Assembly (NCBI RefSeq): GCF_003991905.1
Contig: NZ_RSCL01000019.1
Location: forward strand, 46,329 to 110,328
Direction: 5' to 3'
DNA from: Dulcicalothrix desertica PCC 7102
GTDB taxonomy: Bacteria; Cyanobacteriota; Cyanobacteriia; Cyanobacteriales; Nostocaceae
DNA length: 64,000 bases
Both the position numbers and the translations under genes were made by a program. Under the pieces are notes generated by a model. It saw only the letters and a program-made list of their open reading frames with translations. It did not search any database and had not been told where the DNA came from. This document shows positions 21,973 to 62,744 of the stretch, one piece after another (the stretch's first letter is position 1; each line of letters begins with the position of its first letter).

Positions 21973-21989
21973 ATGAAATTTGAGTGAAA
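21973..21989 (-). promoter_or_regulatory. TTTCAC-N5-TTTCAT tandem box for DUF2808 paralogue 1
   Basis: Read on the minus strand the two hexamers have the same 11-base phase as the other boxes and point toward 21887. The downstream CTGTCAAAGTAGATG matches the extended consensus. Confidence 0.75.
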
Positions 21990-22110
21990 TTTTATAGAAT
22001 CGTGAATAAATCAAGCATCAAATTTATTTATAGTTGCAATCAGAAAATTTTATGATATAATTTAAGACCGATTTTATAAACGGCAGTCAGGGCACCGTCG
22101 GGTGCGAAAA

Positions 22111-22127
22111 TTTCATCCTAATTTCAT
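22111..22127 (+). promoter_or_regulatory. TTTCAT-N5-TTTCAT box upstream of the two-component operon
   Basis: Two perfect hexamers are spaced 11 bases start to start. CTGCAATACTAAATTAGG follows, with the probable -10 about 16 bases downstream. This suggests the response regulator controls its own operon. Confidence 0.8.
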
Positions 22128-22212
22128 CAAGCTCTGCAATACTAAATTAGGTTGAGGTAAATGTCAGCTATTCCCCAATGTAATACTAATATATTTACTG
22201 TATATACTGGTT

Positions 22213-22914
22213 ATGAAAATATTAGTGGTTGAAGACGAGCCAGATTTAGGTGCATCGATAGTAAGAAAATTGCATCAGGAAAAGTATATTGTTGATTGGC
22301 TGACTGATGGAGATGAAGCTTGGTACTGTCTGGAAACTAGCTGGAGTTCATATTCGGTTGCAATATTCGATTGGTTGCTACCAGGAATGTCAGGTATAGA
22401 ATTGTGTAAGCGTTTGCGACTTCGTAGTAATTCTTTACCAATTTTGATGTTAACAGCTAAAGATAGTATGGCTGACAAGGTTACTGGTTTAGATGCAGGC
22501 GCCGATGATTATTTAACAAAACCGTTCGGGATGGAGGAATTGCTAGCCAGATTACGGGCTTTACAGCGTCGAAGCCCAAATTTACAGGCGCCTGAGCTAC
22601 AAGTTGGTAATTTAATTTTAGATTACACTAATTATGCTGTCTATTGCCAAAAACCTGATGGTAATAAAGCTGTAATTAATTTAACAAAAAAAGAATTTCA
22701 TCTTCTAGAGTATTTCATGAAACGCCCCAATAGTATAGTCACGCGCGACCAAATCTTAACTCATCTGTATAGTTTGAGTGCAGAAAGAGTTAGTAATGTG
22801 GTTGCTGCACAAGTTCGACTGCTGCGACGCAAATTATCAGAGCATAACTGCGACGGACTAATCGAGACTATTCCCAGTATGGGCTACCGCTTTAATCCTA
22901 CCAATGCAAATTAA
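22213..22914 (+). CDS. OmpR-family response regulator (metal-responsive type)
   Basis: The 233-residue protein has a receiver domain with the acidic pocket (Glu7, Asp8), phospho-acceptor Asp53 (AIFDWLLPG), MLTAKD and the conserved Lys in DDYLTKPF. A winged-helix DNA-binding domain follows (LTKKEFHLLEYFMKRPNSIV to IETIPSMGYRF). It overlaps the kinase gene by 11 bases, so the pair is translationally coupled. The closest known cyanobacterial types are the RppA/NrsR/CopR-like regulators of metal resistance. OmpR-type proteins bind tandem hexamers with 10-11-base phase, which fits the repeated TTTCAT boxes in this window, including one before this gene. Confidence 0.9.
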   Translation: MKILVVEDEPDLGASIVRKLHQEKYIVDWLTDGDEAWYCLETSWSSYSVAIFDWLLPGMSGIELCKRLRLRSNSLPILMLTAKDSMADKVTGLDAGADDYLTKPFGMEELLARLRALQRRSPNLQAPELQVGNLILDYTNYAVYCQKPDGNKAVINLTKKEFHLLEYFMKRPNSIVTRDQILTHLYSLSAERVSNVVAAQVRLLRRKLSEHNCDGLIETIPSMGYRFNPTNAN

Positions 22915-24283
22915 ACTTTTTAATAAAACTCGTTGGCGCCTAGCTGCCTGGTATGCATTGGTTATGGCTCTAATTTTAGGGTTATGTGGTCTTGTAGTAT
23001 ACCAGGTAATGATTCGTGCGTACTTGGTATCAATTGATTTAGAACTAGAATCTGTTACTGGTACATTACATAGTGTAATTGAGCCGAATTTAAAACAACC
23101 CGGTCAAATTGAACCAGTTATTGAATTAGTTTTACCCAATCTTTGTATAACTAACTCCGGTTGTTCCAATCAACAAATTCCCAGCCACAGCCAACAAGCT
23201 CACAATCGTCATGGTATATTTAGCCCAGTATATAAAGATAAACAATACTATATTCGCTTTGTTAATACTTCTTTTAAAGTAATTGCCGTAGCTGGACTCA
23301 AATCAAATCAACTACCATCAACTATACGAACGAACGTATGGCAAACGCTTAGAGATGCACAAGGCAACCGTTACAGTCAAAAGTCTTTAGAACTACACAC
23401 CCAGGATAATCGGACGTGGGGATATATACAAGTAGGACGCAGCCTGAAAGAATTGGATAATCGTCTTCTTGCATTAAAGCTAACCTTGGCTTTTGGGTTG
23501 CCAACTTCTATATTTTTAGTTGGTGCTTCGAGTTGGTGGTTAGCTGGGTTAGCAATGCGGCCAATTGATAGGTCGTATAAACAAATGCAACAGTTTACCT
23601 CTGATGCTTCCCATGAACTGCGAACTCCTTTAGCAGCAATAAACGCTACCGTTGAAACTATACTTGATTTAGAATATTTATCGGAACAAGAGGCACGCGA
23701 TACTTTAATATCCATCAGGCGCCAAAACTTGAGACTTTCTAGTTTAGTACAAGATTTACTACTATTGTCACGATTTGACCAAAAAACTCAGGTTACGGAC
23801 AGACAACAAATTTGTCTCAATGATTTAATTAACGATGTGATGGAAGAGTTCTCAGCGCTGGCAAGCAATGCTGATTTACAGCTAAGTTCATCGTTGGAAT
23901 ATTCACAACCTTTATATGTGCTGGCAGATGAAGACCAGATTTTACGTCTAATTTCCAACTTGATTGCAAATGCAATTAAATATACTCAAAATGGCGGTTA
24001 CGTTAATGTAACTCTCAAACGCAGCAACGGTGATGCAGTAATTGAAGTTAAAGATACAGGTATTGGGATTCCACTTGCTGAACATGTGCGAATTTTTGAC
24101 AGATTTTACCGCGTTGATAGTAACCGTTCTCGTAGTAGTGGTGGTTCTGGACTGGGACTAGCTATTGCAAAAGCTATTGTTGAAGCACACAAGGGAAGTA
24201 TCGAAGTCCAAAGTCAACTGGGTAAAGGGAGTAATTTTATTGTGCGACTCCCTCCTGTGAGTACCGATGAACCATTAGGTTGA
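22904..24283 (+). CDS. sensor histidine kinase of the two-component pair
   Basis: The 459-residue kinase has two membrane segments (about residues 14-36 and 190-214) that enclose a periplasmic domain. This domain contains a Cys/His-rich stretch (PNLCITNSGCSNQQ, then SHSQQAHNRH) that may bind a metal. The cytoplasmic part has the HisKA motif ASHELRTPLAA with His237, the N-box NLIANAIKYT, DTGIG, and the G2 box GGSGLGLAIA. It should autophosphorylate and pass the phosphate to the regulator encoded just upstream. That copper or a related metal is the signal is inferred from the efflux and copper-protein genes carrying the same promoter box. Confidence 0.9.
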   Translation: MQIKLFNKTRWRLAAWYALVMALILGLCGLVVYQVMIRAYLVSIDLELESVTGTLHSVIEPNLKQPGQIEPVIELVLPNLCITNSGCSNQQIPSHSQQAHNRHGIFSPVYKDKQYYIRFVNTSFKVIAVAGLKSNQLPSTIRTNVWQTLRDAQGNRYSQKSLELHTQDNRTWGYIQVGRSLKELDNRLLALKLTLAFGLPTSIFLVGASSWWLAGLAMRPIDRSYKQMQQFTSDASHELRTPLAAINATVETILDLEYLSEQEARDTLISIRRQNLRLSSLVQDLLLLSRFDQKTQVTDRQQICLNDLINDVMEEFSALASNADLQLSSSLEYSQPLYVLADEDQILRLISNLIANAIKYTQNGGYVNVTLKRSNGDAVIEVKDTGIGIPLAEHVRIFDRFYRVDSNRSRSSGGSGLGLAIAKAIVEAHKGSIEVQSQLGKGSNFIVRLPPVSTDEPLG

Positions 24284-24328
24284 TATACCTTCAAGCATTA
24301 ACCGATTAAAAGCTTGAAAATGCATAAA

Positions 24329-24345
24329 TTTCATCCCAATTTCAT
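24329..24345 (+). promoter_or_regulatory. TTTCAT-N5-TTTCAT box upstream of second response regulator
   Basis: Two perfect hexamers are in 11-base phase, followed by TTGTCAAGCTAGTACTAGGG, matching the extended consensus. The gene start is 45 bases downstream. Confidence 0.8.
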
Positions 24346-24389
24346 TAATTTTTGTCAAGCTAGTACTAGGGATAACTTTTTTACAAACT

Positions 24390-25148
24390 ATGCTTATTTC
24401 GCAACAAGAAAACTTTAACACCACTATTCTATTAGTAGAAGATGACCTTGATTTCGGCGCCGCTGTCAAGCGAGCATTAACGCAGCAGAATTACTCAGTG
24501 GATTGGGTAACTGATGGAGCAGAAGCTTGGGTATATCTAGAAAATATTCAATACGCATTGGCTGTTTTCGATTGGATGTTACCTGGTGTAACAGGTTTGA
24601 AATTATGTCAACGGTTGCGAGAAAATAATAATCCTTTACCTGTTTTGATGCTCACAGCCAAAGATAAGGTGGAAGAAAAAGTCCAAAGTTTAAATGCAGG
24701 CGCCTCGGATTATCTGCTCAAGTCATGTAGCATGACAGAACTAGTGGCACGCTTGCAGGCATTACAACGGCGTTTTGGGCAATGTCAACAAACACAACTA
24801 ACTGTTGGTAATTTAACTCTAGATTACAATAGCAGTACGATAAAGAGTCAGAATCAAGCTTTTGAAAGACAAGAAATTTCTCTTACTCACAAAGAATTTC
24901 ACGTACTAGAATACTTGATGAAGCATCCAAATCAAATTATTGCTGGTGATGAAATTCGCGCTTATTTACAGAAGATGAATTCAGAAAGCTGTAGCTGTGT
25001 AGCCGCAACTCAAATACGCGCGTTGCGGCAAAAGTTAATTAATTCTGGTTGCACTAACCCAATTGAAACTATACCAAGCTCTTCTTATCGCTTTAAAATT
25101 TCACCCGAATTTCATCCGAGCATGACAGACTGTAAAGTAAGCGGTTAA
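24390..25148 (+). CDS. second OmpR-family response regulator, without its own kinase
   Basis: This 252-residue paralogue of the regulator at 22213 keeps the phospho-acceptor Asp (AVFDWMLPG), MLTAKD and the receiver Lys (DYLLKSCS, although Pro after Lys is changed). It also keeps a winged-helix domain (LTHKEFHVLEYLMKHPNQII to IETIPSSSYRF). It has its own promoter box and no kinase gene follows, so it may share the upstream kinase or compete for the same operators. Its last 13 codons (PEFHPSMTDCKVS) are made of another TTTCAC-N5-TTTCAT promoter box, so the C-terminal tail is operator DNA that has become coding. Confidence 0.88.
   Translation: MLISQQENFNTTILLVEDDLDFGAAVKRALTQQNYSVDWVTDGAEAWVYLENIQYALAVFDWMLPGVTGLKLCQRLRENNNPLPVLMLTAKDKVEEKVQSLNAGASDYLLKSCSMTELVARLQALQRRFGQCQQTQLTVGNLTLDYNSSTIKSQNQAFERQEISLTHKEFHVLEYLMKHPNQIIAGDEIRAYLQKMNSESCSCVAATQIRALRQKLINSGCTNPIETIPSSSYRFKISPEFHPSMTDCKVSG
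25099..25115 (+). promoter_or_regulatory. TTTCAC-N5-TTTCAT box inside the 3' end of the regulator gene
   Basis: It lies within coding sequence and drives toward the decayed cusBA genes at 25216. CATGACAGACTGTAAAGTAAG follows, as at other boxes. Confidence 0.75.
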
Positions 25149-25215: not shown

Positions 25216-25448
25216 ATGTCACAGCTTAACCGTTACCTAAATAAAATTGCATCATCTGCCATACTTGCTAAAAGCAGGTGCAGGACATGACCATAGTGGC
25301 GCCAGTGAATTTCAGGGGGGAAGTGATGCCAATAGTCCAGTAAATGTTGACGCTCAAACAGCCCAACGGCTAGGAATTAAAACTGAAGCGGTAAAACAAC
25401 AACCATTGGCTTTGGGAATCAAATTTATTAAATTATTAAAAATAGAAA
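25216..25448 (+). pseudogene. RND adaptor (CusB-type) gene stub
   Basis: The remaining sequence keeps part of a signal region and the segment GHDHSGASEFQGGSDA, then DAQTAQRLGIKTEAVKQQPL, matching the N-termini of the intact adaptors at 52201 and 54314. It then jumps to the A-rich spacer found directly before cusA genes. About 500 codons, all the coiled-coil and barrel domains, are gone. A frameshift lies near 25270 in the signal region. No functional periplasmic adaptor can be made. Confidence 0.85.
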
Positions 25449-27639
25449 ATGCTTGGAAATATTGTTAGGTGGGTGATTGAGCGGCGTTGGCTCGTTGTAT
25501 TAGCTACAATTCTTGTTTCATTTTGGACATTTTATGTCATCCCGACTATGCCATTAGATGTACTTCCTGCTTTTGCACCACCCCAAGTAGAAATTCAAGC
25601 GGAGGCGCCTGGGTTGGCGCCGGAGGAAGTAGAATCTTTAGTAACTTTACCAATCGAAAGTGCAATTAACGGTACACCTGGAGTGACTGCTGTACGTTCA
25701 TCGAGTGCAGCAGGTATTTCAGCGGTAAGAGTAATATTTAACCAGAATACTGAGATATACCAAGCACGTCAGTTAATCACCGAACGACTACAACAAGCTA
25801 CAGGTAAACTACCTCCAGGAGTAGAAACACCACAAATATCTCCCACTACTTCCCCTGTTGGTTTAGTCGTACAATACGCTTTCACCGTCGAAGAAAATAA
25901 TAAATCGAGTAATAGCACACTCAGCACTCAGAACTCAGCACTCAGCACTTCTTTAATGGAAGCTCGTCGAATCGTTGATTGGCAAGTGACAAATCGGCTT
26001 TTAGCTGTTCCTGGGGTTAGTCAGGTTTTAACTTTTGGTGGTGATGAACGACAATTTCAAGTTTTAGTTGACCCAGTAAGATTAGCCGCATTTAATATAA
26101 CATTAGACCAAGTTACACAAGCAACTCAAAAAGCAAACGTTAACGCTCCTGGTGGCTTTTACATTACGCCAGATACAGAAAAATTAATTCGAGGTATTGG
26201 TAGAATCGAATCAATCGAAGATTTAAAGAAATCAACTATTATTTCTCGTAATGCTGTTCCTGTGAGGTTGCAGGATGTCGCGGATGTGCAAATCGGCGCC
26301 GCAATTAAACGCGGTGATGGCAGTTTTAATGGTACACCTGCAATTATTGTCATGGTGAATAAACAGCCGATAGTTGATACTCCGACTGTCACCCGTGCGG
26401 TAGAAAAAGCAATGGGGGAAATTAAAGCAGGATTGCCAAAGAATATTAAGGTAACTACTACATTCCGCCAAGATAGTTATATTGAATCTTCTGTTGATAA
26501 CGTTCGTTCATCTTTGATTCAAGGTAGTATTATTGCTGCGATAATTCTGATACCCTTTTTGATGAATTGGCGTACTCTGACAGTATGTTTACTTGATTTT
26601 TTTCTAACATTACTATTTGGATTACTTGCACTATCTTGGTTAGGAATTGGATTAAATACCATGACATTGGGTGGTTTAGCAGTCGCGATTGGTACTGCAA
26701 TTGATGATGCAATTGTATATGGTGAAAATACTTATCGCCGACTGCGGGAAAATAAAACTTCGGATAACCCATTGTCACCATTAGAAATTATTTTTGAAGG
26801 TTCTCAAGAAGTCCGCGATTCATTAATTGGCGCCACGATTATTGGGATTATTGTTTTCTCACCTATTTTTACCTTACCGGGAATTGAAGGAAAAATTTTC
26901 ACGCCAATGGGTATTTATTATTTGGTGGTAGTTGTAGTTTCTAGTTTAGAATCTTTATTGATTTCTCCAGCTTTGTGTGCAATTTTATTACCAAATGTAA
27001 CAATTACTAAACGAGAACAAGGTCAAACGTAATGTGCAAGTTACCCCAGGTTATTTTATTCAATATGCAGGTCAATTTGAAGCTGAAGAACGCGCAACGC
27101 AAAATATTTTAGTTTTTAGTGTTATTGCGTTTGTTGCAATCACCGTCATTATGTATCTGTCGGTTAAATCTATTCCTTCTACCGCAATGATTATGATTAA
27201 CTTACCGATTGGTTTAGTTGGGGGTGTAATTGCCGTTGCTTTGACTGGTGGAGTAATTTCTGTTGCATCGTTAGTTGGATTTGTTTCGTTATTTGGGGTA
27301 GCAACTCGTAACGGTTTATTACTAGTAGATAACTATAATAGTAAATATGCCGAAGGTATGCCATTAAAAGATGTAATTGTCAAAGGGTCAATGGAACGAC
27401 TCAACGCAATTTTAATGACAGCTTTAACTTCTGCACTGGGTTTGGCGCCGATGGTATTACAGGGTGGACCCGGACAAGAAATTTTACAACCACTATCGAT
27501 AGTTGTATTTGGTGGTTTGTTCACTTCCACAGCGATAACCTTAGTCGTGTTACCTGCTTTATACGCTAAGTTTGGTAAGTTTTTATTCCCCAAAAAACAA
27601 GAAGAAGTTAAAGAGCAACAATTTTTTATGCACATGTAG
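25449..27639 (+). pseudogene. CusA/CzcA-type RND pump gene with a large internal deletion
   Basis: Residues 1-522 match the intact pump at 56079 up to LLPNVTITKREQ. The frame then shifts and stops at 27030, and the next frame resumes at VQVTPGYFIQYAGQ and runs to the normal end (QQFFMHM). About 330 codons, including the second periplasmic domain and TM7-8, are missing. The N-terminal part retains the TM4 motif AIGTAIDDAIVYGEN. It contains the same in-frame heptamer repeat as the intact copy, so the two are a duplication made after that insertion. It cannot be a working pump. Confidence 0.9.
25918..25950 (+). repeat. CACTCAG heptamer repeat within cusA pseudogene
   Basis: Four heptamers (one AACTCAG variant) plus five bases encode a Ser/Thr-rich loop. 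An identical 33-base block is in the intact cusA at 56548-56580. Confidence 0.85.
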
Positions 27640-27803: not shown

Positions 27804-27965
27804 ATGAAAAATAACTTAAGCCTTTTAGCCCAGCGTCCAGCAATTGTTCGGATAATTGCCTTTCTTTTATGCTTACTGGTGATATTGTTACCTATTGCTA
27901 TTCCAATATATTTATTGATATATGATGCTAACTTAAGGACTTTTTCGCGGTTGGATATAGGATGA
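27804..27965 (+). CDS. 53-residue membrane protein next to the cation ATPase
   Basis: The peptide starts [17 protein letters not shown] and has one strong hydrophobic helix ([23 protein letters not shown]). It ends RTFSRLDIG. Its TGA overlaps an ATG at 27962 that opens the longest ATPase frame, but the ATPase more likely starts at 28088. No family is recognised. It could be a small pump subunit like other single-helix ATPase regulators, or an orphan; the next promoter box lies after it. Confidence 0.5.
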
Positions 27966-28015
27966 GTAGTTTAGCAATTGCAGAGAAGTATAATACATCT
28001 TTCAAGCAGCTAAAA

Positions 28016-28032
28016 TTTCATCCCAATTTCAT
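28016..28032 (+). promoter_or_regulatory. TTTCAT-N5-TTTCAT box upstream of the P-type ATPase
   Basis: Perfect hexamers are followed by AATGTCTGTCAATCTAAGTA and TAGG, as at other boxes. The box lies inside the longest ATPase reading frame, which argues that translation starts at 28088. Confidence 0.8.
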
Positions 28033-28087
28033 CAATGTCTGTCAATCTAAGTATAGGCGTGAATCACTATATCAGTTAGCTACTAAG

Positions 28088-30952
28088 ATGAAACCTAAAT
28101 TACCAGACTCTGCACCGAGTACAGCCAAACCTTGGCACTCCTTAGAAATTGAGAAAGCTTTGGCAGTACAAAAAAGCAACCCAGACACTGGATTGACTTC
28201 TAAACAAACGTCGGAATTATTACACGAATACGGTGCTAACGAATTACAGGAGTTTGGCGGTCGTAAACCTTTATCTATTTTAATTGACCAATTTACCAAT
28301 ATCATGCTTGTGATGCTGATGGCGGTAGCAGTAGTTTCAGCGATTCTAGATTTGCGCTCTGGTGATTTTCCTAAAGATGCAATCGCAATATCCTTTATTG
28401 TTATTCTTAACGGGTTGCTTGGCTTTGTACAAGAAAGTCGTGCAGAAAAAGCTCTCGCAGCTCTCAAACGCCTTAGTTCACCCAGAGTCAGAGTTTTACG
28501 CGACAGCAAAATTTTTGAGTTGCCAGCAAAGGAATTAGTGCCAGGAGATATTGTATTTCTGGAAACAGGAATGCAAATAGCCGCAGATGGTCGTTTGTTA
28601 GAAGCACAAAATTTACAAGTGATGGAAGCTGCTTTAACTGGGGAAGCAGAAGCAGTTCATAAAGATTCTACTCTTCATTTACCTGAAGACGCTTCCTTGG
28701 GAGACCGTATAAATATGGTGTATCAAGGTACTGAGGTTGTTCAAGGACGGGCAAAAATGCTTGTGACTGCAACAGGGATGCAAACTGAACTTGGTAAAAT
28801 TGCGGCTTTGCTCCAGTCTGTTGAAGCCCAACCAACCCCCTTACAACAGCGAATGTCACAGTTAGCAAACGTTTTAGTAACAAGTTCACTTGCATTAGTC
28901 GCTGTTGTAATTATAGGTGGTATTGTACGGACAGGTAGTTTTCAACACTTTGACCAATTACTAAAAGTGTCTTTGAGTATGGCTGTGGCGGTTGTGCCAG
29001 AAGGTTTGCCTGCTGTAATTACGGTAACTTTGGCTATTGGTACTCAGCGAATGGTACGTCATCAAGCTTTAATTCGCAAACTACCAGCAGTTGAGACATT
29101 AGGCTCAGTTACTACGATTTGCTCAGATAAAACAGGCACACTTACTCAAAACAAGATGGTCGTACAGCAGATTAATGTATCTAGTAATAGCATTAGGGTG
29201 ACTGGAGATGGTTATGCTCCTACAGGAACATTTGAATTATCTACTTCCAATCAAGACAAAAATATTAAATCTATAGAACCAAAAGATTATCCAGAACTTG
29301 AACAACTATTATTTGCCTGTGTGCTTTGTAATGATGCTGTATTACAGAAAAAGCATTCAGAATGGGAAATTTTAGGAGACCCAACCGAGGGAGCGTTGTT
29401 ATCTGTTGCAGGTAAAGCTGGTATGCAACAAGCAAAACTATTAAATCAGTTTACCCGCATTGCAGAGTTTCCTTTTTCTTCTGAACGCAAACGTATGAGC
29501 GTTATTTGCCAAAGGCGCCAAACAGAATTAACACAAATCTTATCTGCCCAGGAGGAATATCAGGCGCCTGACTCACAGTTAATTATGTTTACAAAAGGTT
29601 CGCCAGAGTTAATATTAGAGCTTTGCACATCTGATTACGTTGGTACAAAAAGCTCTTTTGCTCTGAATGATGAAAAACGTGCTTACATTCTTGAGCAAAA
29701 TAACCAAATGGCAAGTCAAGGACTTCGAGTACTAGGATTTGCCTATAAACCCTTAGATACTACTGTGCCTACTACATTATTAGACGAAAAAACAACCGAG
29801 CGAGAATTAATCTGGATTGGATTAGTCGGAATGCTTGATGCACCAAGACCAGAAGCAAAAGCAGCTGTTGCTCAATGTCAGCAAGCAGGTATTCGCCCAG
29901 TTATGATTACCGGAGACCACCAGTTAACAGCACAAGCTATTGCCTACGATTTAGGGATTGCCAAACCAGGTGATTTGATTCTTAGCGGTCAAGAATTGGA
30001 AAAACTCTCGGCGCCTGAATTAGAGCAGCAAGTTAATCAAGTAAGCATTTATGCTCGTGTTTCTCCTGAACATAAACTACGAATTGTTGAAGCATTGAAA
30101 AATCAAGGCAAATTAGTAGCGATGACTGGAGATGGTGTAAACGATGCACCAGCCCTAAAGCAAGCAAATATTGGTGTTGCAATGGGCATTACAGGAACTG
30201 ATGTAAGCAAAGAAGCAAGTGATATGGTACTACTTGACGATAACTTTGCAACTATTATTAGAGCTATAGAAGAAGGACGAGTAGTTTACGATAATATCCG
30301 TCGTTTTATTAAATACATATTAGGCAGCAATATTGGCGAAGTTTTGACAGTAGCAGCAGCTTCTCTGATTGGCTTAGGTGAAACTCCCCTCTCACCACTA
30401 CAAATACTTTGGATGAATTTAGTAACCGATGGTTTACCTGCCTTAGCTTTAGCGATGGAATCTCCTGAACCTGACGTAATGAATCGTCCTCCTTACAACC
30501 CTCATGAAAGTATATTCGCACGAGGATTAGGATTTTACATTATTCGCATTGGCATTATCCTTGGACTTATTACTATTGCTCTAATGGAGTGGGCTTATAA
30601 CTATACTCAACAATCAGGCGACCCTGAAAGATGGAAAACGATGGTGTTCACTACTTTGTGTCTAGCACAAATGGGTCATGCGCTGGCGATTCGTTCCAAC
30701 ACACAATTAACTATACAACTCAATCCGTTCTCCAATCCTTACTTACTTGCTGCGATTTCATTGACAACTGTTTTACAGCTAATGTTAATATATGTGGCGC
30801 CCCTGCGTAGCTTCTTTAACACTCACTTGTTAAGTTTGCCAGAACTAGGTATTTGTATTGGATGCAGCGCTTTGGTATTTGTCTGGATTGAATTAGAAAA
30901 GTTATTTATTAAGCATTTTCGACAAGAGCGAAAGATAACTTACAAAGTTTAA
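28088..30952 (+). CDS. P2-type (Ca2+/cation) transporting ATPase
   Basis: The start at 28088 (MKPKLPDS) is chosen because the 42 codons before it consist of a promoter box and leader. The protein has about 954 residues with the cation-ATPase N-terminal domain ([20 protein letters not shown]), the TGEAEAV actuator, PEGLPA in TM4, phosphorylation motif [18 protein letters not shown], and [14 protein letters not shown], plus ten predicted membrane helices. This is the PMCA/SERCA-like class, which exports Ca2+ or Mn2+ rather than Cu+. A TolC-like gene follows after 53 bases, suggesting one transcript. Its place in the metal regulon is inferred from the box. Confidence 0.88.
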
Positions 30953-32663: not shown

Positions 32664-32680
32664 TTTCATCTTAATTTCAT
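32664..32680 (+). promoter_or_regulatory. TTTCAT-N5-TTTCAT box upstream of DUF2808 paralogue 2
   Basis: Perfect hexamers in 11-base phase lie 75 bases before the start codon. The 32464-32755 gap holds nothing else I can identify. Confidence 0.75.
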
Positions 32681-32755
32681 TAGTAGATATCATAATAAAA
32701 ATATAGAGGTTGCGAACAAAACATTAATTCAAATCAATTCAACAGGATAATAAAA

Positions 32756-36024: not shown

Positions 36025-36041
36025 TTTCATCACAATTTCAT
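36025..36041 (+). promoter_or_regulatory. TTTCAT-N5-TTTCAT box upstream of PAP2 gene
   Basis: The box lies 17 bases beyond the right end of the IS element. GATTTCCTATAGTAGTTATTA follows. The distance to the gene start is about 225 bases. Confidence 0.7.
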
Positions 36042-36265
36042 TTTGATTTCCTATAGTAGTTATTAGATGTTTATGCCTTAACATCCATCCACACTATTGT
36101 CTGGTTTATTAGTGTATCTAGATACATTAATAAGCCTATTTATTAAAGAAATTACAATGAATCCTAAGCTACATAAAACTTATTATGTCTTCAAAAATAT
36201 TTCCGACTTCTTTACTATTAATTCATATAAGTTGTAAATTGTAGCTGGCTTTAGAAATATCAATT

Positions 36266-38365: not shown

Positions 38366-38382
38366 TTTCATCCTAATTTCAT
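38366..38382 (+). promoter_or_regulatory. TTTCAT-N5-TTTCAT box upstream of the DUF2808 pair
   Basis: Perfect hexamers are followed by CGCTACCTGTCACACTTATG and AAGTAAAGG, a close match to the extended consensus. Confidence 0.8.
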
Positions 38383-38471
38383 CGCTACCTGTCACACTTA
38401 TGAAGTAAAGGTTCACAAACACAAAATGAATCTTGCGGCTAGTTGATATAGTTATCATGTATACATCTGAG

Positions 38472-39641: not shown

Positions 39642-39995
39642 TTATGCAGCCATTGCTTTCGCCATTTGTCGGCAAGAATCTGCACATCGACGGCAAGATT
39701 GAGCGCAGCGTTTGCAATGTTCGCTGTTATGTTTTTCGCACTCTGTAGCACAGCGGTCACAAGCTTCAGCACAGACACTACACATTTGAGCATGAAGAGC
39801 GGAATTACGAGACATGAAACGCGCGCAAAGGGTACAAGTATCAGCACAATCTTGGCATAGCTTGATACATTGAACCATCATTTTTACCATGTCGCTATTT
39901 AAGCAAGCACTTGCACAATATTCGCAGTCACGCAAGCAATCAAGACAGTTTTGAATGCAGGTTTCAAGCTGGGATTGATGAGTTGTTGTAGTCAT
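39642..39995 (-). CDS. four-helix-bundle copper storage protein (Csp/DUF326 type)
   Basis: The 117-residue protein contains 21 cysteines spaced along four predicted helices in CxxxC, CxxC and CxxxxC patterns (CIQNCLDCLRDCEYCASAC; MCSVCAEACDRCATEC; CKRCAQSCRRCADSC). This is the pattern of Csp proteins, which hold many Cu(I) ions in the bundle core. No signal peptide is present, so it resembles the cytosolic type (Csp3-like). It is divergent from gor, with two TTTCAT boxes between them facing gor. It would buffer Cu(I) inside the cell alongside the exporters here. Confidence 0.9.
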   Translation of the reverse strand: MTTTTHQSQLETCIQNCLDCLRDCEYCASACLNSDMVKMMVQCIKLCQDCADTCTLCARFMSRNSALHAQMCSVCAEACDRCATECEKHNSEHCKRCAQSCRRCADSCRQMAKAMAA

Positions 39996-40130: not shown

Positions 40131-40147
40131 TTTCATGCTGATTTCAT
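40131..40147 (+). promoter_or_regulatory. TTTCAT-N5-TTTCAT box, distal to gor
   Basis: This is the first of two tandem boxes in the csp-gor divergent region, 11-base phase, 129 bases before gor. Confidence 0.75.
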
Positions 40148-40199
40148 TTGTGTATGTATAACTATTTATTTTAGATTTTTTGTCGTTTCGGTAACAGGA

Positions 40200-40216
40200 T
40201 TTCATGTTGATTTCAT
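40200..40216 (+). promoter_or_regulatory. TTTCAT-N5-TTTCAT box, proximal to gor
   Basis: This second box is 60 bases before the gor start, followed by GAAAAGTAGATATATAGGG, with a TATA-like -10. Confidence 0.78.
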
Positions 40217-41404
40217 TTCAATGTGGAAAAGTAGATATATAGGGAACAACATTATTATAAGCAGGGTTAATAGTTATGAGCTTTGATTATGACTTATTTG
40301 TAATTGGCGCCGGACCAGGAGGAGTTTCTGCTGCTAGACTTGCAGCTACTCATGGCGCAAGGGTGGCAATTGCAGAACGAGATAAGGTCGGCGGAACCTG
40401 CGTGATTCATGGCTGTATTCCAGAGAAACTGATGGTTTATGCTGCTAGTTTTTCTCAGGTTTTTGATGATGCTGACGAATATGGCTGGGGCAAAGTTCAA
40501 CGTCGCGTTAATTGGCCACAATTTATGGCAGCGAAAGATAAGGCTATTGAGCATCTGAGCCAGTTACATATTCAACACCTTAATGAAGCAGGAGTAGAAC
40601 TAATTTACGGACAAACTAAATTTTTAGATGCTCATACTTTAGATGTTGGAGGACGTAAAATTACAGCTGACAAAATTTTGATAGCGGTAGGTGCTGAAGC
40701 TGTCAAGCCAAACATCGCGGGAATTCAATATGCCATTACATCACGTGAAATGTTTGAATTAAAGCAGCAACCTGAGCATTTAGCAGTTATTGGCAGCGAC
40801 CAGATAGCTGTAAAGTTTGCTGGAAGCATGAATGGTTTAATTTCAAAAGTGACTTTAATCGTGCCAGAAGACCTTGTTCTACCGAATCGTGATCAAGATA
40901 TTCAGACTACGGTTCAAGAAAGTATGATTAAGAATGGAATTCAAGTTTTATGCAATACTAATGTCGAAAAAATTGAACAAGTAAAAGATGGTTTACGGTT
41001 GACTTTATCAGGAGATAACCAAGATACCATAACTGTAAACACCGTTCTTTGCGTTACAGATCGTGTTCCTAATTTGAGTGGTCTAGATTTGGAAAAAGGG
41101 GAGCATCCAGTTTTGGCAGAAACACCAAAACGAGCGGGCGCCAATAGATAATTACTCTAATCTTAAATATAGTTCGTTATAATACTCACTACACATACTA
41201 CAAAATTAGTTTAAACCTTACTCAACTTTACGAATTTAATTAATAATTATTCTCAATATCTACTAAATATTAACTAAAACAAAAATACTAACAAAAACAA
41301 TATTCAACACAAGCGGAGGTTATAAGCTAAAGCTTATAACGACGCCACGGCGCCTATAATTAAATTCATAAATCCTTGATATTGTAAAATGTTTTGGAAG
41401 CTGA

Positions 41405-41640: not shown

Positions 41641-41675
41641 ATGCTGACAATCAGTAAAAGCGTGCATAAACCATT

Positions 41676-46528: not shown

Positions 46529-46545
46529 TTTCATCTTAATTTCAT
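46529..46545 (+). promoter_or_regulatory. TTTCAT-N5-TTTCAT box, distal to muramidase gene
   Basis: The first of two boxes in the 336-base divergent region between the DUF305 gene and the muramidase gene. A single further TTTCATC half-site lies at 46428. Confidence 0.75.
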
Positions 46546-46586
46546 TTTAATATGCATAGCTAATTTAAAAGCCTATTACACAAATA

Positions 46587-46603
46587 TTTCACTTTAATTT
46601 CAT
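46587..46603 (+). promoter_or_regulatory. TTTCAC-N5-TTTCAT box, proximal to muramidase gene
   Basis: 11-base phase, followed by AAAAATATGAAAGACTATATA with a TATA-like -10; 56 bases to the start codon. Confidence 0.75.
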
Positions 46604-46658
46604 AAAAATATGAAAGACTATATATAGTTAGTAAAAAAAATACTCTAAATAAAGTTAT

Positions 46659-51120: not shown

Positions 51121-51137
51121 TTTCATCCTGATTTCAT
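51121..51137 (+). promoter_or_regulatory. TTTCAT-N5-TTTCAT box upstream of DUF305 lipoprotein
   Basis: Perfect hexamers are followed by GGCTGCGAAACTAGGTAATA and AGG, matching the extended consensus. Confidence 0.8.
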
Positions 51138-51256
51138 ATTTGGCTGCGAAACTAGGTAATAAGGTGGGCGCAATCCAAATTAAATCATTCTACAGGTTGA
51201 CTCTCCACCCAACTGGAGATTTTACAATCTAATTTAGAAATCATAAATCATAATCT

Positions 51257-52069: not shown

Positions 52070-52086
52070 TTTCATCCTAATTTCAT
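52070..52086 (+). promoter_or_regulatory. TTTCAT-N5-TTTCAT box upstream of first intact adaptor
   Basis: Perfect hexamers are followed by TTATGCTGTCAAACTGGTAA and TTAGG, one of the best matches to the extended consensus. Confidence 0.82.
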
Positions 52087-52200
52087 TTTATGCTGTCAAA
52101 CTGGTAATTAGGTGCATAAAAAGGCACAAGAAACGGGCATTGCATCTTGCGTGACAAATATCAGTATAATTGTTTTCTTTAGATAAAATTATTGACTATT

Positions 52201-54167: not shown

Positions 54168-54184
54168 TTTCATCCTAATTTCAT
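54168..54184 (+). promoter_or_regulatory. TTTCAT-N5-TTTCAT box upstream of second adaptor
   Basis: Perfect hexamers are followed by ACATCTGTAAAACTATAAAG and TAGG; the -10 TATAAAG is about 15 bases downstream. Confidence 0.82.
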
Positions 54185-54313
54185 ACACATCTGTAAAACT
54201 ATAAAGTAGGTGGTACAATTTCGCAACATTCAAAAACTCTTTGATGCGAAGTGTACTGCGAACTTTGCCAAAAGTGTAAACCGAACCTGATAGCTAAAGG
54301 AGATTGACAAGCG

Positions 54314-56078: not shown

Positions 56079-59000
56079 ATGCTTAGTAACATTGTAAGGT
56101 GGGTGATTGACCGACGGTGGCTCGTTGTTTTGGCTACAATTGTTGTTTCATTGTGGACATTTTACGTCATACCCCAGATGCCGTTAGATGTGCTACCACC
56201 GTTTGCTCCCCCGCAAGTGGAAATTCAAACCGAAGCACCTGGACTGGCGCCGGAAGAAGTAGAATCTTTAGTTACTTTACCAATTGAGAGTGCAATTAAT
56301 GGTACACCAGGAGTAACGGCAGTTCGCTCATCGAGTGCGGCGGGAATTTCTGCGGTCAGGGTAATATTTAATTGGGGTACAGAAATTTATCAGGCACGTC
56401 AACTAGTTACCGAAAGGCTACAACAAGCTACAAGTAAATTACCACCTGGAGTAGAAATACCCCAAATTTCCCCGACTACCTCACCTGTAGGTTTAGTTGT
56501 TCAATATGCCTTCACTGTCGAAGACGAGAACAAATCAAGTAACACTACACTCAGCACTCAGAACTCAGCACTCAGCACTTCTTTAATGGAGGTGAAGCGA
56601 ATTGTTGATTGGCAGGTTACAAATCGCCTTTTAGCAGTTCCAGGTGTGAGTCAGGTAATAGTTTTTGGTGGAGATACTCGTCAATATCAAGTATTAGTTG
56701 ACCCAGCGAAGTTAGCAGCTTTTAATGTTTCTTTAGAGCAAGTGACTAATGCTGCAAAAGCCGCCAATGTTAATGCACCTGGCGGTTATTTAATTACACC
56801 AGATACAGAAAGGTTAATTCGTGGAATTGGACGAATTGAATCTATTGAAGATTTGAAAAAATCAACTATTACTTCACGCAATGGAGTTCCTGTTAGACTA
56901 CAGGATGTTGCTGATGTACAAATTGGAGGCGCCATTAAACGCGGTGATGGTAGTTTTAACGGCAAACCAGCAATTATTTTAATGGTTAATAAACAGCCGC
57001 TAGTTGATACTCCTACTGTTTCCCGATCCATAGAAACAGCAATGAAGGGAATAAAAGCGGGATTACCCTCATATATTAAAGTTACTACGACGTTCCGTCA
57101 AGATAGTTATATTGAATCCTCAGTTGACAACGTTCGTTCATCGTTAATTCAAGGTAGTATTATCGCAGCAGTAATTCTAATTCCTTTTCTGATGAATTGG
57201 CGTACTCTTACAGTCTGTTTATTAGATTTTTTCTTAACATTACTGTTCGGTTTATTAGCACTTTCATGGTTAGGTATTGGACTCAATACTATGACTTTAG
57301 GTGGTTTGGCAGTAGCAATTGGTACTGCGATTGATGATGCTATTGTTTACGGTGAAAATACATATCGCCGACTACGGGAAAATAAAACTGCTTCTAACCC
57401 ATTACCACCACTCGAAATCATTTTTGAAGGTTCTCAAGAAGTACGCGATTCCTTAATTGGTGCCACGATTATCGGGATTATTGTTTTCTCGCCAATATTC
57501 ACTTTACCAGGCATCGAAGGTCGAATATTTACCCCAATGGGTATTTCTTACTTGGTGATAGTAGTCATTTCTAGTTTAGAATCATTATTAGTTTCCCCAG
57601 CTTTATGTGCAATTTTATTACCAAATGTCAAGGTAACAAAGCGAGAACCTTGGTTGGCAAGATTATGTAAAGGAATTTATGTTTCCTGTCTAAACTTTTC
57701 GTTCCGAAATTCATTATTAATCATTGGTGTAGCATTAGCTTTAACAGTAGCTTCAATCGCAATTATTCCTTCTTTTGGTAGGGCATTTTTACCAGAGTTC
57801 CAAGAACAAACAATGGTAAATACCTTAAGTTTGTATCCTGGCGTATCTTTAGAAGCAACAACCAAAGCTGGGTATGTAGTAGAAGAAGCACTGAAAAATG
57901 ACCGTAGATTTGAATTTATTCAAACACGTTCGGGACGTGCGGCGGGAGATGCAGATGCAGCAGGTGTTAACATTGCCCACGTTGATATTGAACTCACTCA
58001 AGAAGGGATGAGAAATCGAGAAAAAACTTTAGAAAAAATGCGCTCTGAGTTTGGTAAAATACCAGGAGCGGCGCCGAACGTTGGCGGTTTTATTTCTCAC
58101 CGGATGGATGAGGTTTTATCTGGGGTTCGCAGTGCTATAGCTGTAAAAATTTTTGGTTCTGACTTAGCAGAACTCCGAAAAATCGGAGAACAAGTAGAAG
58201 CACAAATGAAAACTGTTAATGGGGTTGTAGATTTACTGCTTGAACCTCAAATTCCCGTACCGCAAATTCAAATCAAATTTGATAGAGATGCTGCAAGTAG
58301 ATACGGTCATACAGTCGGAGACCTTTCTAACATCATTGAGACTGCACTCAACGGACAAGTTGTTTCTCAGGTTTTAGAAAATCAACAATCTTTTGACCTT
58401 TTAGTTTGGTTAAAACCAGAAGCACGGCAAAGCTTAGAAACGATTCGCAATTTATTAATTGACACTCCGAATGGACAGAAAATTCCTTTAGGGAATGTTG
58501 CAAGAATTAACGACGGTACTGGACCAAATACAATTAATCGTGAAAATGTTTCCCGTTTAATTGTAGTTGCCGCAAATGCAAAGGGACGAGACTTACGCTC
58601 GATTGTCAATGAAATTGAAGCCAAAGTCAAAAGCAATGTGCAAGTTCCTGCTGGTTATTTTATTCAATATGCTGGTCAATTTGAAGCAGAAGAACGCGCT
58701 ACCCAGAATATTCTTGTTTTCAGTCTTATCGCGTTTGTTGCAATTACGGTACTAATGTACCTTTCAGTTAAATCTATCCCTTCTACTATTATGATTATGA
58801 TTAACTTACCAATTGGTTTGGTAGGAGGTGTAATTGCAGTAGCGTTAACTGGAGGAGTTATATCGGTTGCGTCTTTAGTTGGATTTGTTTCTCTGTTTGG
58901 GGTAGCGACTCGCAACGGTTTATTATTGGTGGATAATTACAATAGTAAATATGCTGAAGGGATGCCGTTGAAAGATATTATTGTCAAAGGGTCGATGGAA

Positions 59001-59243
59001 CGACTAAATGCGATTATAATGACGGCTTTAACTTCCGCTTTGGGTTTGGCGCCGATGGTACTGCAAGGTGGACCAGGACAAGAACTATTACAACCACTTT
59101 CTATAGTCGTTTTTGGTGGGTTGTTTACTTCGACAGGAATAACTTTGGTCGTTTTACCTGCTTTATATGCGAAGTTTGGTAAATATTTATTTCCTAAGAA
59201 AGCAGATGAAGCTAAAGAGGAGCAGTTCTTCATGCACATGTAA
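56079..59243 (+). CDS. heavy-metal RND pump (CusA/CzcA type), intact
   Basis: The 1,054-residue protein has the full RND layout: TM1, a first periplasmic domain, TM2-6 with the proton-relay TM4 (AVAIGTAIDDAIVYGENTYR), a second periplasmic domain, and TM7-12 ending EEQFFMHM. The DD pair in TM4 and the N-terminal MPLDVLPPFAPPQVEIQTEA motif define the heavy-metal (HME) class. Which metal it carries cannot be fixed from the motifs; copper/silver is favoured by the neighbours. An in-frame CACTCAG repeat adds a Ser/Thr loop in the first periplasmic domain. It works with the adaptor at 54314 and a TolC-type channel. Confidence 0.93.
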   Translation: MLSNIVRWVIDRRWLVVLATIVVSLWTFYVIPQMPLDVLPPFAPPQVEIQTEAPGLAPEEVESLVTLPIESAINGTPGVTAVRSSSAAGISAVRVIFNWGTEIYQARQLVTERLQQATSKLPPGVEIPQISPTTSPVGLVVQYAFTVEDENKSSNTTLSTQNSALSTSLMEVKRIVDWQVTNRLLAVPGVSQVIVFGGDTRQYQVLVDPAKLAAFNVSLEQVTNAAKAANVNAPGGYLITPDTERLIRGIGRIESIEDLKKSTITSRNGVPVRLQDVADVQIGGAIKRGDGSFNGKPAIILMVNKQPLVDTPTVSRSIETAMKGIKAGLPSYIKVTTTFRQDSYIESSVDNVRSSLIQGSIIAAVILIPFLMNWRTLTVCLLDFFLTLLFGLLALSWLGIGLNTMTLGGLAVAIGTAIDDAIVYGENTYRRLRENKTASNPLPPLEIIFEGSQEVRDSLIGATIIGIIVFSPIFTLPGIEGRIFTPMGISYLVIVVISSLESLLVSPALCAILLPNVKVTKREPWLARLCKGIYVSCLNFSFRNSLLIIGVALALTVASIAIIPSFGRAFLPEFQEQTMVNTLSLYPGVSLEATTKAGYVVEEALKNDRRFEFIQTRSGRAAGDADAAGVNIAHVDIELTQEGMRNREKTLEKMRSEFGKIPGAAPNVGGFISHRMDEVLSGVRSAIAVKIFGSDLAELRKIGEQVEAQMKTVNGVVDLLLEPQIPVPQIQIKFDRDAASRYGHTVGDLSNIIETALNGQVVSQVLENQQSFDLLVWLKPEARQSLETIRNLLIDTPNGQKIPLGNVARINDGTGPNTINRENVSRLIVVAANAKGRDLRSIVNEIEAKVKSNVQVPAGYFIQYAGQFEAEERATQNILVFSLIAFVAITVLMYLSVKSIPSTIMIMINLPIGLVGGVIAVALTGGVISVASLVGFVSLFGVATRNGLLLVDNYNSKYAEGMPLKDIIVKGSMERLNAIIMTALTSALGLAPMVLQGGPGQELLQPLSIVVFGGLFTSTGITLVVLPALYAKFGKYLFPKKADEAKEEQFFMHM
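56548..56580 (+). repeat. CACTCAG heptamer repeat within cusA
   Basis: This 33-base block is identical to that in the decayed copy at 25918-25950. The third pump gene (62842) lacks it. Confidence 0.85.
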
Positions 59244-59298
59244 TTATCTAAACTGGATATTAGAGATTTCTAAATAAAAAAATCTCCAAAATCTTTTT

Positions 59299-59408: not shown

Positions 59409-59425
59409 TTTCATCATGATTTCAT
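59409..59425 (+). promoter_or_regulatory. TTTCAT-N5-TTTCAT box upstream of sigma factor
   Basis: Perfect hexamers in 11-base phase, 93 bases before the first possible start codon; TCAGATGTAATACTAATTAA follows. Confidence 0.8.
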
Positions 59426-59501
59426 ATTCAGATGTAATACTAATTAAGTATAGGGAATAAGCTGATTTAATAGTTTATACTTCCAACAAAGTGGACTATT
59501 A

Positions 59502-60509
59502 ATGCTAATACAAAATTTATTTAAGAAAGTTCCTTTCGGAGTCATGAAAATGAGAAATGAACCTTTAACTACAAATGATATGGTGCGTACCTATCTCCAT
59601 GAAATTGGACGCATCCCTTTGTTGAGTCACGAGCAAGAAATTTATTTTGCCAAGCAAGTTCAACTGATGATGACAGCACTGGCTCAAAAAGAAGAACTTT
59701 CCAAAAAATTACAGAACGAACCTACACTACGAGAATGGGCTGAAAGCGTAAATTTAACTGAAGAGATACTACTGGAACAGCTAAATTCTGGGCAAATTGC
59801 CAAGCAAAAAATGATTTCAGCCAATCTTCGGCTCGTGGTATCGATTGCGAAGAAATATCAAAAACGTAACTTAGAACTGTTGGATTTAATTCAAGAGGGT
59901 ACATTAGGGCTGGAACGGGGAGTTGAAAAATTTGACCCTAGTTTAGGATACAAGTTTTCAACTTACGCTTATTGGTGGATTCGTCAGGGAATTACACGGG
60001 CAATAGCCCAACAGTCACGTACTATCCGCGTACCTATCCATATTGCTGAGAAGTTAAATAAAATTAAGCGTATTCAACAAGAATTATCTCAAAAGCTGGG
60101 CCATATGCCTACCGTTACTGATATTTCTGAAGCGCTCAATTTGGAACCCAGCCTAATTCGAGAGTGTTTACAGTTTTCTCGTCAACCTATCTCGTTAGAC
60201 AAACGGGTTGGACTAGAACAAGATACCCAATTACAGGATATGTTGCAAGACAACGGAGTATCTCCTGAGCATTATACAGAGCAAGAATTACTTCGTCAAA
60301 ATATTCATAATTTACTGAAAAAGCTGACTCCACAACAAAAAGAAGTGTTAACGCTACGTTTTGCTTTAACAGGCGGATATAGACTTACATTAGCACAAGT
60401 TGGCGAGCGTATGGGTCTTTCTAGAGAACGAGTACGCCAACTTGAAAAACAAGCAATAAGCACTCTAAGAAAATATAAATATAAGGTACGCAATTATTTA
60501 ACTAACTAA
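59502..60509 (+). CDS. group-2 RpoD-type RNA polymerase sigma factor
   Basis: The protein (335 residues; 321 from the internal ATG at 59544, which has GGAG nearby) lacks the long region 1.1 of the primary sigma. It has region 1.2 ([20 protein letters not shown]), the core-binding region 2 ([37 protein letters not shown]), region 3, and region 4 with the -35-reading helix ([20 protein letters not shown]). Group-2 sigmas reprogram cyanobacteria under stress. The upstream box suggests that metal stress induces it and thereby widens the response. Confidence 0.92.
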
Positions 60510-61864: not shown

Positions 61865-62047
61865 AACTTAAAGATTAACTTATTTTCAAATATTGGCTTG
61901 ATACGTTTCGCAAAAACAACGCAGGTTATAAACTTAATAACCCAAGATTTATCATAAAATTTTATCTAGCCAAAGAAAATAACAAAATATCTCTGATATA
62001 CAGGTACTAAAGTAGTACTAAATTAGTATATCTAAAATATACCTAAA

Positions 62048-62064
62048 TTTCATCCTGATTTCAT
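62048..62064 (+). promoter_or_regulatory. TTTCAT-N5-TTTCAT box upstream of amidinotransferase remnant
   Basis: Perfect hexamers are followed by CTTGATATGAAAAACTTATA and ATTAAGG. The 61865-62223 gap holds nothing else identifiable. Confidence 0.75.
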
Positions 62065-62223
62065 CTTGATATGAAAAACTTATAATTAAGGTATATAAAA
62101 TACCTGCTTGGTGCTGTTCTTTCAAAGGAAAAAGGAGGAAGTTAAAAGGACAAAAACCTTCTCAAATCAGGATTTTATCTTTATCCTTCAACCTTTTTCC
62201 CCTGAATTATAATTTATTAAGCT

Positions 62224-62645
62224 ATGACCGAATTTGTGCAAGCATCTATCAATAATGAAAATAAGATTTGCCCCGTCAACTCTTACCATGAATGGGATCC
62301 ACTTGAAGAAGTGATTGTCGGTCGATTAAACGGAGCTAACATTCCTCCATATCACGTTTACCCAGCATTCTCAAATCTTGGGATATATTAGAAGCACCCC
62401 AACCTGATCCAGTTTCCGGAATCACAGGAGCAATGTGCAGTAAATGGATTAGCTTGAATATGTTAATGCTAGATGAAAAACGAATCATTATGGACAGCAC
62501 GCAAGAATCAATGATTAAATCACTAAAAAATTGGGGATTTGAGCCAATACCCCGTTCATTTATGGACTTTGTTCCCTTTGGCGGCTCTTTTCATTGCGCG
62601 ACTTTGGATGTTAGAAGAAGAGGAGAGCTACAATCTTACTTTTAA
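62224..62645 (+). pseudogene. glycine amidinotransferase-like gene with internal deletion
   Basis: The 5' part reads [20 protein letters not shown] and [14 protein letters not shown], the start of amidinotransferases of the GatM/CyrA/SxtG group. It stops soon after HVYPAFSN. The 3' part in another frame has ISLNMLMLDEKRIIMDS, then GFEPIPRSFMDFVPFGGSFH CATLDVRRRGELQSYF, the conserved C-terminus with the GGSFHC active-site Cys. About 230 codons are missing, including the catalytic Asp/His region. Intact enzymes move an amidino group from arginine to an amine; cyanobacterial members begin guanidine-toxin pathways, but no such pathway genes are present here. Confidence 0.85.
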
Positions 62646-62727
62646 GTGCAGCCTCTATTGCACTATATCTATCGTAAATATAAAATTTTCCTTAAGCTTT
62701 TTTATTTAGCCGCAGAAACTCAACAAA

Positions 62728-62744
62728 TTTCATCTTGATTTCAT
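62728..62744 (+). promoter_or_regulatory. TTTCAT-N5-TTTCAT box upstream of third RND pump
   Basis: Perfect hexamers are followed by GGTCTGGGACATTATATACA; the TATATA -10 is about 16 bases downstream. Confidence 0.8.

Follow-up and report, generated by a model that had tools for sequence, protein, structure and literature searches.

A CopR-type direct-repeat box precedes nearly thirty transcription units of a 77-kb metal-resistance island in Dulcicalothrix desertica PCC 7102

We analyzed a 64,000-nucleotide stretch of the genome of the cyanobacterium Dulcicalothrix desertica PCC 7102 (C19:46329-110328 of the 11.4-Mb genome; hereafter the window), which carries a CopR-like response regulator gene with its kinase gene, an orphan CopR-like regulator gene, and genes for efflux proteins, DUF2808 proteins, a multicopper oxidase, and a sigma factor. 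Repeated among these genes is a direct repeat of the hexamer TTTCAT, which we call the box. We found that this box precedes nearly thirty transcription units of one 77-kb metal-resistance island, and that one switch probably turns on the whole island.

The original prediction for this DNA held that pairs of TTTCAT hexamers exactly 11 bases apart define one large metal regulon between window positions 21973 and 62744, and all 18 of the places listed do hold such a pair at that phase. The site given as 21973 on the minus strand is real, with the coordinate marking the low end of a site that is read from 21989, and the TTTCAC variant of the first hexamer, said to occur once, occurs at three sites (21989 on the minus strand, 25099, and 46587). 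The boxes and the genes behind them are collected in Table 1. Open reading frames (ORFs) were called mechanically, with shadow ORFs dropped by length, which makes the distance to the true start codon inaccurate in some cases.

Table 1. Boxes, regulators, and neighboring genes in the window (window coordinates)
Feature	Position	Strand	Context or match
Divergent box TTTCACTCAAATTTCAT + TGTCAAAGT	21957..21989	-	before DUF2808 gene 21405-21887
CopR-type box TTTCATCCTAATTTCAT + extended -10 TGCAATACT	22111..22143	+	heads response regulator/kinase operon
CopR/RppA-family response regulator (Response_reg + Trans_reg_C)	22213..22914	+	60.7% identity to Synechocystis pSYSX regulator
CopS/RppB-family sensor kinase	22904..24283	+	49% identity to pSYSX kinase; NF041735 620 bits, cut-off 400
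Box + TGTCAAGCT	24329..24361	+	before orphan regulator gene
Orphan CopR-like regulator	24390..25148	+	no kinase gene behind; phosphoacceptor Asp kept; helix altered (SCVAATQIRALRQKL)
Box TTTCACCCGAATTTCAT + TGACAGACT	25099..25131	+	before broken CusB/CusA set 25247-27639
Box + TGTCAATCT	28016..28048	+	before P-type ATPase gene (mechanical ORF 27962-30952, scanned from 28076), then OEP gene 31006-32463
Box + TATCATAAT (three of four -10 letters)	32664..32696	+	before DUF2808 gene 32756-33226
Box, degenerate third half-site TTTCCT at 36047, three of four -10 letters	36025..36057	+	before PAP2 gene 36266-36958
Box + TGTCACACT	38366..38398	+	before two DUF2808 genes 38433-38948, 39027-39521
DUF326 / weak Csp1-like copper storage protein	39642..39995	-	35 bits, below cut-off 100; opposite strand to boxed neighbors, no own box
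Two boxes (40131, 40200), each with extended -10	40131..40232	+	before insertion-split glutathione-reductase-like gene
Two boxes (46529, 46587)	46529..46619	+	before ORF 46659-47357 (no family found), DUF4396, multicopper oxidase genes
Box + TGCGAAACT	51121..51153	+	before CopM-like DUF305 gene 51257-51982 (NF049983 131.9 bits, cut-off 90)
Box + TGTCAAACT	52070..52102	+	before CusB-like gene 52192-54135
Box + TGTAAAACT	54168..54200	+	before CusB-like 54314-55993, CusA/CzcA-like 56079-59243 (TIGR00914 773 bits, cut-off 701)
Box + TGTAATACT	59409..59441	+	before sigma factor gene
Cyanobacterial RpoD/SigA-family sigma factor	59502..60509	+	TIGR02997 432 bits, cut-off 384.5
Box + TGAAAAACT	62048..62080	+	next ORF 62433-62645 (70 aa, no family found)
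Box + TGGGACATT (three of four -10 letters)	62728..62760	+	before ORF from 62842, extends past window; clusters by BLAST with CusA-like proteins

The window holds 15 exact pairs where 0.04 would be expected, and none of 100 shuffles reached that number. With up to one mismatch there are 20 pairs against 1.49 expected, two of which were absent from the original list (36036, overlapping the 36025 box, and 45978, inside an ORF). On the plus strand of C19:67700-147000, 29 of the 38 same-strand TTTCAT pairs that lie 6 to 40 bases apart are spaced at 11 and any other spacing occurs at most twice, which marks the element as a direct repeat rather than a palindrome; the minus strand of that region has no TTTCAT pair at spacing 11. 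Genome-wide, the exact string TTTCAT-N5-TTTCAT occurs 45 times against 6 for a reversed-pattern control, with 29 occurrences on C19 (68439-145749, all plus), 4 on contig C23 (all minus), 2 on contig C69, and 10 elsewhere. The pattern TTTCAYNNNNATTTCAT has 42 exact matches, 39 within the C19, C23, and C69 loci and 3 elsewhere, and the stricter TTTCATNNNRATTTCAT has 33, all inside these loci. Because the exact and strict boxes concentrate in this way, the genome scan excludes that the motif is equally common at unrelated genes, the check set with the original prediction. Scattered weak sites across the genome were also rejected, since allowing up to one mismatch in TTTCAYNNNNATTTCAT gave 119 matches genome-wide and 119 in the control, and thus no excess.

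The array continues beyond the window to C19:145749 with 15 further C19 boxes. The whole C19 island contains 33 boxes (TTTCAY-N4-A-TTTCAT) over 77,432 bp, 32 of them on one strand, and 4 boxes on C23 and 2 on C69 bring the genome to 39. Beyond what gene direction accounts for, the boxes show a modest strand bias: 57 of the 70 island ORFs are on the plus strand (binomial p 0.02). We found 29 of the 33 C19 boxes to be intergenic, compared to 22% of random places, and 23 to be both intergenic and 15 to 300 bp before a co-directional ORF, compared to 11%; four other islands were alike in both measures. This orientation and promoter position, together with the recurrence of the box before the same genes across genomes and a chance expectation near zero, argue against the boxes being a small mobile or amplified repeat without regulatory role, or a product of chance. 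Such an origin would fit the restriction of many copies to three loci, and 12 of the 39 boxes do share similarity in their 240-bp upstream flanks with another box. These are mostly neighboring pairs and a C69 copy of the 40131/40200 promoter; among boxes further apart, similarity links 126657/126682, 137721, and C23:102315 (75 to 87%) and links 40200 with 46587 (70%). The remaining 27 flanks have no similarity to one another (E≤1e-3), and the shared part is therefore a 36-bp promoter motif. On the shuffles, the orientation and position tests, and the flank comparison, we reject chance and a repeat element as exceedingly improbable. Some boxes may nevertheless have spread by local promoter duplication.

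An extended pattern had been proposed to follow the box, with the box itself sitting where a -35 element would be. The pattern is real: the letters T24, G25, A28, and T32 are all present at 14 of the 18 window boxes and at least three of them at every one, whereas 0.7% of random intergenic places have all four and 7.6% have at least three. Genome-wide, the full set of four is found at 27 of the 39 boxes, and three or more at 36. A logo built on 217 distinct boxes, drawn from eleven segments in six genomes, reads AAA-TTTCAT-CYTRA-TTTCAT-N7-TG-NN-A-NNN-T, and the four letters, which were not used to select boxes, are conserved at 92% (T24), 81% (G25), 90% (A28), and 94% (T32). They place a TG one base before a -10 hexamer that carries A at position -11 and T at position -7, the form of an extended -10 in a putative promoter. 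The -10 hexamer starts 10 nt after the second half-site. The proposed -35 placement holds for the first TTTCAT, but the second lies in the spacer, and the best reading of "CTGTCAAACTA" is an extended -10 (TGnnAnnnT). We rejected a third CopR half-site in its place, because the conserved letters at +24, +25, +28, and +32 do not spell TTTCAT and stand 13, not 11, bases after the second hexamer. In the pho box bound by PhoB, the place of the -35 is likewise taken by 11-base direct repeats, which stand some 10 nt upstream of the -10; the half-site there is different, however, and the window regulator fails the PhoB equivalog model (176.1 bits, cut-off 296.2), by which PhoB identity was rejected.

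The same frame is found on other replicons. Both the copM and copB promoters of Synechocystis plasmid pSYSX, which carry the same box, have T24, G25, A28, and T32. Counted from the annotated start codon, the copM +1 falls at about box position 41, 9 nt after T32, where a -10 consensus would give 39 to 40; this uses the PcopM72 fragment of 72 nt up to the start codon, described in the available text of its source as holding two direct repeats and a start site 26 nt before the codon (PMC4890671). On five named Nostocales plasmids (pANACY.02, pANSO36B, pBOCT1, and those of Tolypothrix PCC 7601 and Scytonema NIES-4073), the stretches read contain 28 boxes, and 15 of the 16 exact ones have at least three of the four -10 letters.

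A first half-site in the -35 position raises the potential that the boxes are core promoter parts, tandem -35 elements for the island's own sigma factor, and not operators. The sigma gene in the array does lie behind its own box and is boxed in six of seven cases in the islands read, and sigma genes occur near CopRS on other plasmids. Two hexamers at a fixed 11-base phase are nonetheless the geometry of an operator. Moreover, the box precedes copM and copB on pSYSX, in a 14.7-kb stretch that has no annotated sigma gene, and no box was found in the stretches around three sigma relatives outside a metal context. We consider this explanation very unlikely.

The regulator that would read the box as an operator can be named from its family. 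The window regulator passes the equivalog model NF041734 (381.3 bits, cut-off 250), and its recognition helix is that of Synechocystis CopR (SNVVAAQVRLLRRKL in both), within a form, SNVVAAQ[VI]RLLRRKL, found in all four named CopR proteins that we aligned (pSYSX, PCC 7122, PCC 7601, Brasilonema). A proteobacterial heavy-metal regulator was rejected, as the model TIGR01387 is not passed (162.6 bits, cut-off 279.2) and the operator is not palindromic. Box and regulator are also linked. Of 67 loci whose CopR-like regulator has at least 50% identity, 40 have a box near the operon start (within 450 bp, or between a leader gene and the regulator), 35 by exact match and 5 with one mismatch plus at least three -10 letters; of 13 loci with a more distant regulator, none does. 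These counts come from the best 80 of 294 confirmed loci, many of them from related strains. Among 146 sampled cyanobacterial genomes, CopR (E≤1e-60) is present in 47 of 59 with a box and in 30 of 87 without (Fisher p 9.5e-8, a test that ignores relatedness). In the window, the CopR operon and the CopM and CusBA-type genes all have the box before them.

What we observed directly is the motif, with its position, orientation, promoter geometry, and conservation, and the link between it and CopR. We are confident that the boxes are CopR operators, most likely of a copper-responsive switch read by CopR (RppA family). The box was already known as the putative CopR site reported upstream of copMRS and copBAC in Synechocystis, and so was the switch; what stands of the proposed large metal regulon is a local regulon. 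That site was reported as TTCATN4-5TTCAT, and CopRS control was described for copMRS and copBAC alone (PMC4182526); a second report states that CopR binds both promoters (PMC4284471).

Several points weigh against the CopR operator reading. The published spacing of N4-5 between TTCATs compares with N6 here and on pSYSX. Sites at Synechocystis mntC and nrs were unresponsive to copper, according to the available text (PMC4182526), so the box alone is not enough. No box lies near the operon start at 27 of the 67 CopR-like loci, 12 of the 59 genomes with a box have no CopR at E≤1e-60, and 68 of the 123 boxes among the matches listed outside this genome lie within 30 kb of a CopR gene. Twelve of the 28 boxes on the Nostocales plasmids start with TTTCAC and were accepted only given three of the four -10 letters. 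Orthologous promoters keep the box while their flanks drift (core identity 0.93, flank 0.53), a core value inflated by our having picked boxes by motif. Finally, binding to a different motif is reported for the family member RppA (PMC13421787).

It is also possible that the boxes are read mainly by another member of the family, for example the orphan regulator at 24390-25148 or a nickel/zinc pair of the RppA/NrsR type, in response to some other metal or redox signal. The genome encodes four CopR-like regulators at E≤1e-60, one of them the orphan. The orphan does not match the recognition helix of Synechocystis CopR in our alignment; its type recurs in six copies across islands and congeners with a helix of its own (SCV[VA]ATQ[VI]R[AT]LRQKL), forms a clade with support 1.000, and, in the gene orders of the islands examined, is not followed by a kinase gene. 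The efflux genes are of the CusA/CzcA type, which also serves zinc, cadmium, cobalt, and nickel. The nrs promoters of Synechocystis are reported to contain TTCAT repeats (PMC4182526), and CusR, CopR, and CzcR of Pseudomonas to share one site (PMC11195947). On the other side, the CopR-type helix is present in all four named CopR proteins aligned, and pSYSX has the box twice and a single place for such a regulator (E≤1e-30, searching pSYSX among the four plasmids). The reported preference of RppA for another motif also counts against this alternative, as do the CopM homologue and multicopper oxidase among the targets. We therefore think it unlikely, with a small but real chance of being correct. 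Given four CopR-like regulators, one an orphan with a different helix, the boxes may be read in part, or even mostly, by regulators other than the window pair. The original claim that the pair at 22213-24283 controls the regulon thus keeps its core, in that the sequence supports one putative local regulon under an OmpR/PhoB-type regulator of that kind. By homology, copper is the first and most likely metal.

In the mechanism that we propose for the CopR switch, the kinase CopS would activate CopR in response to a high level of metal, most likely copper, outside the cytoplasm, and a dimer of phosphorylated OmpR/PhoB-type CopR would bind the direct repeats. With the first TTTCAT at the -35 place, the second in the spacer, and an extended -10 (TGn-[CA]A-nnn-T) beginning 7 nt after the box, the core promoter would be weak and would fire when CopR is bound. 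Boxed copRS, the orphan CopR-like regulator, and the sigma factor would form one switch with positive feedback, governing efflux pumps, periplasmic and secreted proteins, porins, a multicopper oxidase, and thiol enzymes. Binding by CopR, activation, and the identity of the metal are what we infer for this organism.

The closest known system is CopRS of Synechocystis sp. PCC 6803, which has the same regulator and kinase family, the same box and extended -10 geometry, copM-like and CusBA-like targets, and a box before the regulator operon. It differs in scale, with two operons in the available report compared to 33 boxes in one island here, and a sigma factor, an orphan regulator, DUF2808, and porins are not among the targets named in that text. 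Proteobacterial CopR, CusR, and CzcR share the OmpR fold, the organization as metal-responsive pairs, and copper or RND resistance targets; their sites, in the available part of PMC11195947, are palindromes such as ATTCATnnATGTAAT, in contrast to the direct repeat here, and the CusR regulon is called very restricted (PMC11195947). In the open-licence literature, the exact motif string had no match, the matches listed for TTTCAT with CopR were unrelated papers, and the matches for TTCATN with copper included PMC4182526. For a Calothrix copper regulon, cyanobacterial CopR regulons, and Nostocales metal islands, that literature held nothing on such an array in titles or abstracts.

As far as the open-licence literature searched shows, the scale of the array is new, and in most of the cyanobacteria sampled the box is found just a few times. 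Counting strict boxes, this genome has 33, and none of the other 145 of the 146 sampled genomes has more than 7. In a second set of 60 relatives, congeners have 62, 37, 34, 31, 3, and 0, one other genus of the family has 30, and the rest have at most 12, which leaves five genomes of one Calothrix-type genus with 31 to 62. Within this genus, CopR copies and strict boxes pair as 0 and 0, 1 and 3, 2 and 31, 4 and 33 (this genome), 4 and 34, 5 and 37, and 6 and 62. The relatives include Calothrix sp. PCC 7716, PCC 7103, HK-06, and NIES-4105. In PCC 7103 the array is chromosomal, with 34 of 34 boxes on one strand over 70.6 kb, and in PCC 7716 it is on a mobilizable plasmid, with 30 of 32 boxes on one strand over 53 kb across the record start. 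A search of a viral collection of 2.9 million contigs with the full pattern found 25 stretches with one match each.

The Nostocales plasmids carry smaller versions of this arrangement, sharing the box, the -10, CopRS, CusBA, and sigma genes, with DUF2808 annotated on two; they have 3 to 12 boxes per 29.6- to 33-kb stretch read, compared to 33 in 77 kb here. Their boxes stand variously before cusB (all five plasmids), cusA, pcxA/cemA (four plasmids), and copR or DUF2808-copR. The pcxA/cemA boxes have weaker -10 letters, and a sigma gene follows 40 to 60 bp behind pcxA/cemA; the nearer sigB relative on these four plasmids has no box of its own. All five plasmids, four of which are typed as conjugative, have one or two RpoD-family sigma genes inside their CopRS metal clusters, and the plasmid relatives of the window sigma factor are annotated sigB or group 2.

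We also compared what the boxes precede. Across the eleven segments, 167 boxed ORFs (a box -400 to 700 bp before the gene) fall into 38 BLAST clusters. In the largest of these clusters, boxed members make up 36 of 43 in the DUF2808-like cluster, 18 of 37 in the single cluster of regulators and kinases, 17 of 18 among CusB-like proteins, 9 of 16 in DUF305/CopM, 8 of 22 among CusA-like proteins, which are often second in an operon, 6 of 7 among sigma factors, and 6 of 6 among OprB porins. New among the targets are a divergent DUF2808 subfamily, P-type ATPases, porins, a sigma factor, and an orphan CopR paralogue; also new are the definition of the promoter, the layers that the orphan regulator and sigma factor add, and the frequent position of DUF2808 directly before copR. 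The boxes at 40131 and 40200 do precede the glutathione-reductase-like gene (gor) that had been named as a target (40276 on), but this gene is split by a 2-kb insertion.

Of the eight proteins that this genome contributes to the DUF2808-like cluster, Pfam assigns seven to DUF2808 and has no match for the eighth (L003:10133-10639). The genome has eight DUF2808 matches at E≤1e-5, two strong (more than 120 bits, on contigs C18 and C4) and six weak (29 to 43 bits), and all six weak ones lie in the C19 island. Among congeners, the weak matches are on contigs with boxes, and one boxless congener has a third match, of 90 bits. Directly before copR, where Synechocystis has copM, 17 of the 67 CopR-like loci have DUF2808 instead, and 14 of these are boxed. 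The one literature match for DUF2808 with copper in the open-licence set was an Anabaena exoproteome study that names the DUF2808 protein All7597 (PMC10957091). DUF2808 may be a secreted or periplasmic metal-binding protein. It is a family without known function, for which divergent members at box loci and ahead of copR provide a testable role.

Taking scale and targets together, we find the case finely balanced for a super-regulon in the Calothrix-type genus: 22 to 34 CopR promoters, mostly on one strand, within 53 to 91 kb of plasmid or chromosomal DNA, where a sigma factor and an orphan CopR paralogue whose helix is altered would act as inner feedback layers, and where divergent, probably secreted DUF2808 proteins would be the largest target class, in the role of CopM. 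This would be a local transcription factor scaled up by packing its sites rather than scattering them. Close relatives with 0 to 62 boxes in one genus offer a system for comparing metal tolerance with the copy numbers of operator and regulator. In addition, a motif known from a handful of promoters becomes a strict, readable code with 217 distinct sites in six genomes, by which a CopR promoter can be defined and used.

Several smaller features of the window remain. The CusBA set at 25247-27639 is broken, with CusA pieces that match profile positions 2-493 and 841-1020 only, and a CACTCAG heptamer repeat (4.6 copies) occurs in both CusA-like genes (25918-25949 and 56548-56579). The insertion in the glutathione-reductase-like gene (41098-43136, about 2 kb) is absent in the relatives HK-06 and PCC 7716, and its flanking matches overlap by 8 bases, as after target duplication. 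Within the island, an IS1634-like transposase gene (DUF4277 + DDE) at 33597-35252 lies between the 36025 box and a DUF2808 gene. At 17484-19994 on the minus strand, close by the boxed stretch but not in it, is a gene for a heavy-metal P-type ATPase with two HMA domains and no box directly before it. An Rfam match to NsiR1, a nitrogen-stress-induced RNA, lies at 13603-13664 on the minus strand.

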